Positions 2,072-4,349 of a stretch of DNA of 39,436 nt are shown here, in pieces. The stretch comes from Candidatus Methylacidiphilales bacterium (GTDB taxonomy: Bacteria > Verrucomicrobiota > Verrucomicrobiia > Methylacidiphilales > JANWVL01), in contig JANWVL010000132.1 of assembly GCA_025056655.1 (NCBI GenBank), positions 1-39,436 of the forward strand, given 5' to 3'. Position 1 is the first letter of the stretch. Every line of letters begins with the position of its first letter. A program made the translations under genes and the position numbers. The notes beneath the pieces are model-generated. The model saw only the letters and a program-made list of their open reading frames with translations. It did no database searches and was not told the DNA's origin.

Positions 2072-2719
2072 ATGATGGATGAGGCGAGTGGTCGAGAGCG
2101 TGTAGGGGGGGAATTGCCAGATGAGCATTATGTGCGGTTGGCGTTGGGGGGGGAGGTTGGGGCGTTTGATGTGTTGATCGAGCGGTATAAAAGGAAGTTG
2201 TATGTTTATGTTTTCAATATGATCGGGCATCGGGAGGATGCTGATGATGTGTTGATGGATGCGTTTATTCGGGCTTACCAGAATTTGCATCGATTTCGGG
2301 GTGGGGCTTCTTTTTCAACATGGCTTTATCGAATCGCACACAATCGGGCATTGGATTTTCTAAGGCGGAATAAGATGCGGCAAAATATTTTTAAGGAAAA
2401 ATGGCATGCAGAGGGAGAGGAGGCGGGAAATGAGACTGCGGAAGGGCAGGTCAAAAGCGAGGTCCAGGAGATACGGGATGAGAGTGTGGCTGGGGATGTG
2501 GGGCGTGGGGTGCAGAATCGGGAGCTGGAAAGGAAGTTGAACGAATGTTTGCAAAAATTGTCTGATAATCATAGGGCTGTGGTTGTTATGTATGATATTC
2601 AAGGAAAAAGTCATGAGGAGATTGCAGCAGTGATGGGGTGCTCGGTGGGGACGGTGCGTTCTCGGTTGCACTATGCTCACGCGCAGTTGCAAAATTGCTT
2701 GAAGGATTATTTGAAGTGA
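2072..2719 (+). CDS. RNA polymerase sigma-70 factor, ECF subfamily
   Basis: 215 residues with the two-domain ECF layout. Region 2 spans about residues 30-100 (DADDVLMDAFIRAYQNLHRF, then FSTWLYRIAHNRALDFLRR). A charged linker follows at about 105-155, then region 4 with a helix-turn-helix (HEEIAAVMGCSVGTVRSRLHYA) at about 175-205. The linker is long for an ECF factor and rich in Glu. The product redirects RNA polymerase to a small regulon, usually under control of a neighbouring anti-sigma factor. The next gene, 22 bases downstream, encodes a single-pass membrane protein suited to that. Two adjacent ATG codons (2072, 2075) are possible starts and neither has a clear ribosome-binding site. Confidence 0.93.
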   Translation: MMDEASGRERVGGELPDEHYVRLALGGEVGAFDVLIERYKRKLYVYVFNMIGHREDADDVLMDAFIRAYQNLHRFRGGASFSTWLYRIAHNRALDFLRRNKMRQNIFKEKWHAEGEEAGNETAEGQVKSEVQEIRDESVAGDVGRGVQNRELERKLNECLQKLSDNHRAVVVMYDIQGKSHEEIAAVMGCSVGTVRSRLHYAHAQLQNCLKDYLK

Positions 2720-2741: not shown

Positions 2742-3224
2742 ATGAGAAACGATGATAAGTCGGTGTTGTTGAGCCAGCTTTTGCGTGGGAGGGATCGTTT
2801 ACCGGATGGGGTTGATTTGGAGAATTTTTGTGTGCGATTTGATCGTGCACTGAGGGAGCGGATGATTCGACGGCATAGCTTGAGGATGGAGTTGCGAGAT
2901 AGGATAATGGGTCTGTTTAATTTTAATCCGATGTTGAGGCTCAGGTATCTTGGAGCGGGGGTAGCGGTGTTGGTGTTAGTGTTTGGTGTGTATTTTGGGG
3001 TGGGGTGGAGGTGGGGGGAGGAAGTCGAGTTGGCTTTGAGCAAGTCGCTTTCTCTGCCAGCACAGAACGTTAGGTATGTGGGTGGTGACGAGGTCTTTGT
3101 GGGAACGCATCAGAATGATGAGGCTTACAACGAATTGATACTGAAAAACAAAGGGGTGAGAGCTACTGTTCGATACGTTTCTGCAGACGAGCCGTATCTG
3201 GCGGATTCTGCTATGACTTTTTGA
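2742..3224 (+). CDS. Single-pass membrane protein, putative anti-sigma factor
   Basis: 160 residues: a charged, probably cytoplasmic N-terminal part (about 1-66, rich in Arg, Asp and Leu), one strong transmembrane helix (about 67-88, GAGVAVLVLVFGVYFGVGW), and an extracytoplasmic part of about 72 residues. No zinc-binding HxxxCxxC anti-sigma motif is visible and I recognise no named domain. The anti-sigma role is inferred from its place directly after the ECF sigma gene and its RseA-like topology. The chain ends ...SAMTF. A C-terminal Phe of this kind can be a ligand for DegS-type PDZ domains, and the next gene, whose most upstream possible start abuts this stop, encodes a PDZ protein. Confidence 0.6.
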   Translation: MRNDDKSVLLSQLLRGRDRLPDGVDLENFCVRFDRALRERMIRRHSLRMELRDRIMGLFNFNPMLRLRYLGAGVAVLVLVFGVYFGVGWRWGEEVELALSKSLSLPAQNVRYVGGDEVFVGTHQNDEAYNELILKNKGVRATVRYVSADEPYLADSAMTF

Positions 3225-3248
3225 TTGAATGTGGACGTTTTGTTGAGA

Positions 3249-4349
3249 ATGGAAGTAAAAGTTAACTCGTTGTGTGGAAGAAGGTGTAGGGCAATCATTG
3301 CTGGTCTTTTATTTGTATTGGAGGTGACGGTAATAGGTGGAATTTGCGAGATCAAAAAAGCGTCGTCCGTGCTAGAGAGCATTGGGGCAGAGGTTGAAGC
3401 AGTTTTTGAATCTGCGCGGCCTGCTGTAGTGAAGGTTAAGGCCCTTCATGGTGGAGTGACGTTTTGTGGCAGCGGGTTTTACATTAATGAAAAGGGGCAC
3501 GTTATTACCGCTTTGGCGATAATCGGGGATTCTCAAGAGGTGCAGATTGTGGATTCAAGCGGTAGTTATCGGGCTGATGTCCTAGGAAGAGATCCTCGCA
3601 CTGGCTTGGCCTATTTAGTCCGGAAACTCGCCATTAGTGGAAGCCATGGCGAGAAAGAATTAAATATTGATCGAACACCTTACTTAAAATTTGCCGAGGA
3701 TCATGATCTGAAGCCTTCTAGTCCTGTGATTGCGATTGGCTATCCGCTGGATTTGCCTCCGACACCAATATTTGGTTTTGTGACAGGTTTCGACGCCTTC
3801 TATAACAACAGATTATTTGCCACTACCCACATACGGAGTGATATAGGCTTAGCACCTGGCCAACTCGGAGGACCGATGCTTAATCCCAAAGGAGAGGTGG
3901 TAGGAATGATGGTAATCGCCGCGGAGAGGGGACGGTTAAGTTTCGCAATACCGGCTCGCGCGATTAGCAAGGCAGTAAAAGATATCGCGAAATACGGTAA
4001 GGTGCGGCATGGATGGGTTGGAATAGGGGTTCACGAGAGTCAAGATAACGGAGGTGGAGAGCGCAAGACGCAGGTTTCAATTCTATTTCCTAACACACCA
4101 GCAGAAAAAAGTGGGCTCCAGGTAGGAGACATTCTTCTTCAGGTAAATGGGAAGGAGATTCGTAAACCGTCAGATGTGTTGGATATTGCCTACTTTAGTC
4201 AAGTGGGTGAAAAAGTGCCCGTGACTGTCTTGAGAGGGGACAAAGTCCAAACGTTCGTTTATGAAATTGTTGAAAGGCCATCACCGAATTTAGTTACTCC
4301 CCCTCCAGCTGTAGCCGAAAACGCAAACGCATCTTTACCTGCAAAGTAG
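3249..4349 (+). CDS. HtrA/DegP-like trypsin fold plus PDZ protein, catalytic triad lost (pseudoprotease)
   Basis: 366 residues from the ATG at 3249; a TTG at 3225 directly after the previous stop would add eight residues. A hydrophobic segment (about 14-33) should anchor or export it. The middle is an HtrA-type protease domain, recognisable by GSGFYINEKGHVIT, GRDPRTGLAYL and GQLGGPMLNPKGEVVGM. A C-terminal PDZ domain (about 253-343) contains NTPAEKSGLQVGDILLQVNG. Compared with HtrA consensus, the His of TNNHV is Ala90, the Asp of RTDLAVL is Gly119 and the Ser of GNSGGPL is Leu206. All three catalytic positions are therefore replaced while the framework is intact, so this is not a decaying frame. 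It is probably a peptide-sensing or scaffolding protein acting with the sigma/anti-sigma pair upstream. Confidence 0.88.
   Translation: MEVKVNSLCGRRCRAIIAGLLFVLEVTVIGGICEIKKASSVLESIGAEVEAVFESARPAVVKVKALHGGVTFCGSGFYINEKGHVITALAIIGDSQEVQIVDSSGSYRADVLGRDPRTGLAYLVRKLAISGSHGEKELNIDRTPYLKFAEDHDLKPSSPVIAIGYPLDLPPTPIFGFVTGFDAFYNNRLFATTHIRSDIGLAPGQLGGPMLNPKGEVVGMMVIAAERGRLSFAIPARAISKAVKDIAKYGKVRHGWVGIGVHESQDNGGGERKTQVSILFPNTPAEKSGLQVGDILLQVNGKEIRKPSDVLDIAYFSQVGEKVPVTVLRGDKVQTFVYEIVERPSPNLVTPPPAVAENANASLPAK

Follow-up and report, generated by a model that had tools for sequence, protein, structure and literature searches.

A triad-less HtrA-type protein encoded after an ECF sigma factor and an aromatic-tailed putative anti-sigma factor in Verrucomicrobiota

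We describe an HtrA-type Trypsin_2 and PDZ protein without a catalytic triad (hereafter pseudo-HtrA), encoded within the window, the whole 39,436-nucleotide stretch of DNA that was analysed, which lies on contig C132 of a draft genome (2.44 Mb, 178 contigs). Homologous loci were gathered from the order, the class and the phylum, and our tally covers 95 distinct homologues for which upstream DNA was available. The pseudo-HtrA gene stands third after a same-strand ECF sigma gene and one small gene for a one-TM protein in 95/95, a sigma gene upstream being an entry condition for this tally (Table 1). What is new here is that the product of the middle gene, very probably an anti-sigma factor, ends in Phe or Tyr in every one of the 95 orthologues found next to pseudo-HtrA. 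This aromatic carboxy-terminus is a candidate ligand of the pseudo-HtrA PDZ domain.

Table 1. Features of the sigma factor, anti-sigma factor and pseudo-HtrA locus, in window coordinates.
Feature	Position	Strand	Length or basis
ECF sigma factor, 215 aa, first operon gene	2072..2719	+	Sigma70_r2 69 bits, Sigma70_r4_2 56 bits; TIGR02937 117.6 bits, over cut-off
Putative one-TM anti-sigma factor, 160 aa	2742..3224	+	Hydrophobic segment near residue 70 (hydropathy scan); zf-HC2 in orthologues
Last three anti-sigma residues M-T-F, proposed PDZ ligand (phi-x-F-COOH)	3213..3221	+	F/Y end in orthologues
Pseudo-HtrA: N-terminal hydrophobic helix, triad-less trypsin-like domain, single PDZ	3249..4349	+	366 aa
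N-terminal hydrophobic helix, residues 11-30, signal peptide or membrane anchor	3279..3338	+	Sequence and AlphaFold2 helix (low confidence there)
Ala90 at catalytic His position	3516..3518	+	Alignment; His replaced in 95/95 of the family, kept in 7/7 active controls
Gly119 at catalytic Asp position	3603..3605	+	Alignment; Asp replaced in 95/95
Leu206 at catalytic Ser position	3864..3866	+	Alignment; Ser replaced in 87/95
PDZ domain, about residues 253-340	4005..4268	+	Pfam PDZ_6, PDZ_2 and PDZ over cut-offs; AlphaFold2 model
PDZ carboxylate-binding loop G-W-V-G-I, residues 255-259, x-phi-G-phi type	4011..4025	+	Conservation

Both domains of pseudo-HtrA score above their Pfam cut-offs, Trypsin_2 at 59.1 bits over residues 74-220 (cut-off 27.6) and PDZ_6 at 46.7 bits over residues 281-329 (cut-off 27), and the protein falls under the curated NCBIfam cut-offs for Do (TIGR02037, 135.4 bits vs 416) and DegS (TIGR02038, 84.4 bits vs 423). 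An in-frame TTG at 3225 is an alternative start that adds eight residues. An AlphaFold2 model built on an alignment of 47 family members reached a mean pLDDT of 87 and a pTM of 0.81, and its top structure matches were DegP (3otp, Z 32.1), DegS with a YQF peptide (3gdv, Z 30.7) and MucD (8k2y, Z 30.3), AlgW also being found among these matches at Z 30-32. The carboxylate-binding loop of the PDZ domain is kept across the family (W256 in 87/95, G258 in 94/95), and a family-specific helix is also conserved (D309, F315). Three other Trypsin_2 proteins are encoded in the same genome (L001-L003), each with an intact triad.

The three catalytic positions lie in recognizable HtrA contexts, with ITALAII, DPRTGLAYL and APGQLGGP in the window protein vs TNNHVV, DxxTDLAVL and NPGNSGGP in HtrA. 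Ordinary active HtrAs, handled identically as controls, kept His, Asp and Ser in 7/7. At the catalytic Asp position the 95 homologues carry G (65), N (25), S (3), R (1) or C (1); Ser is kept in eight of them, all eight without His and Asp. Since every family member lacks both His and Asp, these two losses are most simply read as ancestral, Ser probably having been lost later in most lineages. A search for an alternative catalytic set found no conserved His/Asp/Ser set among the 95 homologues: the polar residues that are invariant or nearly so are D115, which active HtrAs also have, D245 and D294, and H194 is kept in 77/95 only. A sequence-only reading of the window had proposed an intact protease framework, a well-preserved PDZ domain and the replacement of His, Asp and Ser by Ala90, Gly119 and Leu206. 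The domain scores, the conserved carboxylate-binding loop and the confident HtrA-fold model agree with the first two points, and our alignment with HtrAs arrived at the same three residues. That reading had also suggested a structural comparison with DegS and DegP, now carried out with the matches given above, and had named a His-Asp-Ser set elsewhere in the fold as evidence against it, of which none is conserved in the family.

We further investigated how far the family extends. The best order-level matches share about 36-46% identity with pseudo-HtrA and are mostly of similar length. Scanning genome contigs with the single protein gave no match, and a profile from a closer alignment did find loci. 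Matches at E<=1e-8 were present in 96/98 related genomes, a loose threshold under which some ordinary active HtrAs are counted too. In the tree, the pseudo-HtrA family separates from active HtrAs with a support of 100/100. Named contigs assign it to Verrucomicrobiota, to Methylacidiphilales and to Chthoniobacterales including Chthoniobacter flavus Ellin428; one member (L091) belongs to a different class within this phylum. Class-wide, the same replacements are found again in intact reading frames, which puts them well beyond chance or decay. Judged by alignment and tree, triad loss cannot be put down to a local accident or to decay, and the family is one well-supported clade of Verrucomicrobiota pseudoproteases. 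One genome (G046, contigs C15 and C24; L010, L155) carries the whole module twice, with tails RLAF and RIAF, through duplication or a mixed bin. Four module-bearing MAG records (L114, L128, L133, L134) are titled Betaproteobacteria, Bacteroidetes, Paceibacterota or Blastochloris and are probably mislabelled bins.

The few family members outside the tally are loci at a contig edge or with a short flank, and L042. Active HtrAs recovered by the same searches (L101-L104) had no such sigma neighbour. The middle protein of the window has no Pfam or NCBIfam match, so no zf-HC2 domain was detected in it. Among its orthologues that bear the cytoplasmic motif of this protein (consensus LqkLLrLKR.E.P..eYFdrFL.eFHrRQR), seven were scanned, of which five had zf-HC2 over the Pfam cut-off (L057, L060, L064, L066, L072) and one was just below. 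The middle gene adjoins the ECF sigma gene, and its product combines an N-terminal cytoplasmic domain with one TM segment (topology from a hydropathy scan), as in class I (ASDI) anti-sigma factors. Roughly half of the class I anti-sigma factors have a zf-HC2 or Hx3Cx2C domain, and a single group can contain zinc-bearing as well as zinc-less forms (PMC7406223). Given zf-HC2 over cut-off in relatives and such mixed groups, the middle gene very probably encodes an anti-sigma factor; as the domain is absent from the window protein yet present in five orthologues, it was presumably lost in this lineage. The sequence-only reading had noted an ECF sigma factor and a membrane protein upstream and had suggested looking for orthologues with the same replacements beside sigma and anti-sigma genes. 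Both neighbours are found in the window and at the 95 homologue loci, where the replacements recur; the position of the membrane protein holds, and its description is now refined to a very probable anti-sigma factor through its relatives.

A by-eye comparison of the DNA upstream of the sigma gene for an ECF promoter motif, as expected of autoregulation, found none shared. This gene is preceded in the window by an SNF-family sodium symporter (272-1894, +), overlapped by a 48-aa one-TM ORF (1891-2037, +; MSVWGWIFMLG...) that resembles the small subunit of some bacterial NSS transporters; both are possibly co-transcribed with sigma. At L042 (G024:C1), phmmer found no sigma gene in about 3.8 kb upstream, and the operon may be rearranged. 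Three anti-sigma factors (L068-L070) carry an N-terminal cytoplasmic motif, LLAxKRxExPxxxxxxFLxEFHKRL, twice in tandem.

The aromatic end is the most conserved feature in the tail of an anti-sigma factor whose periplasmic part is otherwise variable: position -1 carries 3.88 bits and every other position among the last 30 at most 1.7 bits, position -3 being mostly L, V, F, I, Y or M. An F/Y end was seen in 33/33 low-similarity clusters of the anti-sigma factor, and as controls in 0/95 pseudo-HtrA and 1/95 sigma proteins. The 95 anti-sigma factors comprise 93 picked by script and two (L049, L058) that end in F once the frame is corrected, the script favouring the aromatic-ending ORF where candidates compete. 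When ORFs were picked on length alone, 56/56 ended in F/Y in an earlier set and 91/95 in the full set, the four exceptions being picking errors, with L062 and L148 also ending in F; the aromatic preference of the script therefore does not make the result. Similar ends occur on outer-membrane proteins (OMPs) of the same genome, where BamA ends in ...VGYQF and a second Omp85 protein in ...SWLF. In characterized systems, the DegS PDZ binds YxF and the AlgW PDZ binds the WVF tail of MucE (PMC8545111). We also modelled a read-through fusion of the anti-sigma factor and pseudo-HtrA with AlphaFold2, in which the tail was undocked and disordered (pLDDT about 30); this model says little on docking, because it offers no free carboxylate and the anti-sigma portion was modelled without an alignment.

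We propose that pseudo-HtrA, a stable third member of this Verrucomicrobiota ECF sigma and anti-sigma operon, would act in the periplasm, where its PDZ domain would bind the anti-sigma factor by its phi-x-F/Y carboxy-terminus and thereby shield, guard or gate this tail. Misfolded or stalled outer-membrane proteins, also phi-x-F-ended, would compete for the PDZ groove and displace the tail, leaving the anti-sigma factor open to attack by other proteases. Its degradation by an active site-1 protease, drawn from the three intact HtrAs, and by an RseP-like site-2 protease would then set sigma free; two M50 pieces are present in the genome, on separate contigs. We put the chances of this proposal at about even; that the tail is bound, which way regulation runs, what ligand competes and which proteases finish the work are all inferred. 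A search with PF03888 found RseB/MucB neither in the genome nor in pseudo-HtrA, which leaves room for an RseB-like guard. RseB and MucB guard RseA and MucA (PMC8545111). A more specific version, to which we give somewhat less than even credence, is that a dead HtrA replaces RseB as guard, its PDZ clamping an OMP-mimicking anti-sigma tail that unfolded OMPs would displace. If true, this would be a competition switch without catalysis built on the same chemistry as the textbook system, in which an active HtrA is turned on by an OMP tail. The sequence-only reading had taken the protein for a sensor that kept peptide binding and lost cutting. The orthologues give strong backing to lost cleavage and to an association with an ECF sigma factor, and the conserved carboxylate loop together with the candidate tail ligand indirectly supports peptide binding; a sensor would be one role among others, and an RseB-like guard fits at least as well.

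To examine the coupling of tail and pseudo-HtrA, sigma orthologues were followed into lineages outside the first search. Seven f11 loci outside an Akkermansia-like genus (L206, L207, L263-L265, L267, L268) encode a pseudo-HtrA that is strongly degenerate but retains its PDZ, and their anti-sigma tail ends in F in 7/7; one further f11 genome (G347) lacks the pseudo-HtrA gene and has a tail ending in F. Three Akkermansia-like genomes (L208, L209, L272; from their placement, probably Akkermansia) carry a very degenerate copy, and the tail ends in IEM at both loci read (L208, L209). In the 11 f20 genomes (L199-L205, L212, L213, L261, L262; by placement, probably Opitutaceae) the anti-sigma orthologue bears a phi-x-F tail with no adjacent pseudo-HtrA, and a regex check of Trypsin_2 matches in four of them saw no clearly triad-less HtrA elsewhere. 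Six f28 genomes without pseudo-HtrA have anti-sigma factors ending in R or Q in five cases and in Y in one. The tail thus accompanies pseudo-HtrA almost always, yet it can persist alone. An exclusive coupling of the two is ruled out by the f20 genomes. Their anti-sigma orthologue is longer, reaching about 280-340 aa, and its periplasmic part is long and of low complexity. The most extreme pseudo-HtrA form, in L208, L209, L272 and the relatives L206/L207/L263-L268, has a barely recognizable N-terminal trypsin-like half and retains the PDZ and the operon.

Persistence of the tail without an adjacent pseudo-HtrA means that another reader has to be allowed for. It could be an active HtrA of the Do or DegS type or the PDZ of a site-2 protease, to which the tail would offer an entry point for regulated proteolysis; pseudo-HtrA would then leave the tail unbound and bind other ligands such as OMP C-termini or lipids, or serve the active protease as a decoy or scaffold. 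We consider this doubtful, if the most serious competitor. Besides the f20 tails, it can draw on the active HtrAs present in all genomes checked, including the f28 genome scanned. HtrAs form trimers or higher-order oligomers, so mixed oligomers of active HtrA and pseudo-HtrA are possible, which also counts for it. It sits poorly with the non-aromatic tail in five of the six f28 genomes without pseudo-HtrA, since the one scanned keeps its active HtrAs, and with a pseudo-HtrA that keeps its own PDZ carboxylate loop and stays at its operon position.

Less probable is the positive sensor of the sequence-only reading, whose PDZ would sense OMP C-termini, the loaded pseudo-HtrA pressing on the anti-sigma factor or recruiting an active protease, much as a DegS that leaves cleavage to another enzyme. 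The DegS/AlgW-like fold with its PDZ and the YQF and WLF tails of OMPs in the genome would suit it, but alone it leaves the like tail on the anti-sigma factor in 95/95 unexplained. There is very little room for residual or relocated catalysis, in which pseudo-HtrA would still be a peptidase through other residues: the Ser of eight members and H194 might hint at it, and against it stand the lack of a conserved His/Asp/Ser set family-wide and the largely degenerate N-terminal barrel of Akkermansiaceae-like members that keep the PDZ part. A decaying, functionless gene, for which the lost triad could be cited, can practically be dismissed given an open reading frame, an operon and structural and PDZ residues conserved in 95 distinct members, besides the matches in nearly all related genomes under that loose threshold.

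Envelope-stress signalling is known in detail in Proteobacteria and hardly in Verrucomicrobiota. A widespread module of sigma factor, anti-sigma factor and pseudo-HtrA would represent a protease turned regulator and held over deep time, along a decay gradient that starts with members retaining Ser, passes through loss of the whole triad and ends in forms with little beyond the PDZ part. The module is present in a named strain, Chthoniobacter flavus Ellin428.

HtrA-derived pseudoproteases (MamO) and PDZ-sensing HtrAs in sigma signalling (DegS, AlgW) are already known. Our literature search found no description of a dead HtrA in a sigma/anti-sigma operon with a PDZ-type anti-sigma tail, a search result that does not prove absence. 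Like DegS and AlgW, pseudo-HtrA joins a trypsin-like domain to one PDZ, has an N-terminal hydrophobic helix and is partnered with an ECF sigma factor and a one-TM anti-sigma factor; unlike them, it lacks the triad and is encoded directly after the anti-sigma gene, and the phi-x-F tail is on the anti-sigma factor itself. The PDZ ligands of DegS and AlgW end in phi-x-F (PMC8545111). MucD, DegP and DegQ are its nearest relatives in fold and sequence, but they are active, usually have two PDZ domains and are not tied to this sigma/anti-sigma operon. MamO, an HtrA-derived pseudoprotease of magnetotactic bacteria (PMC4794232), likewise has an HtrA fold, no functional triad and a non-proteolytic role beside active HtrAs. 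MamO for its part retains His and Asp, carries Thr in place of Ser, has a metal site of surface di-histidine type and a transporter domain, and belongs to no sigma/anti-sigma operon. Pseudo-HtrA finally recalls RseB and MucB in its place after sigma and anti-sigma and in its proposed role as a periplasmic non-proteolytic regulator. RseB too comes third, in the order rpoE-rseA-rseB, whereas the HtrA pseudoprotease fold is unrelated to the RseB fold.
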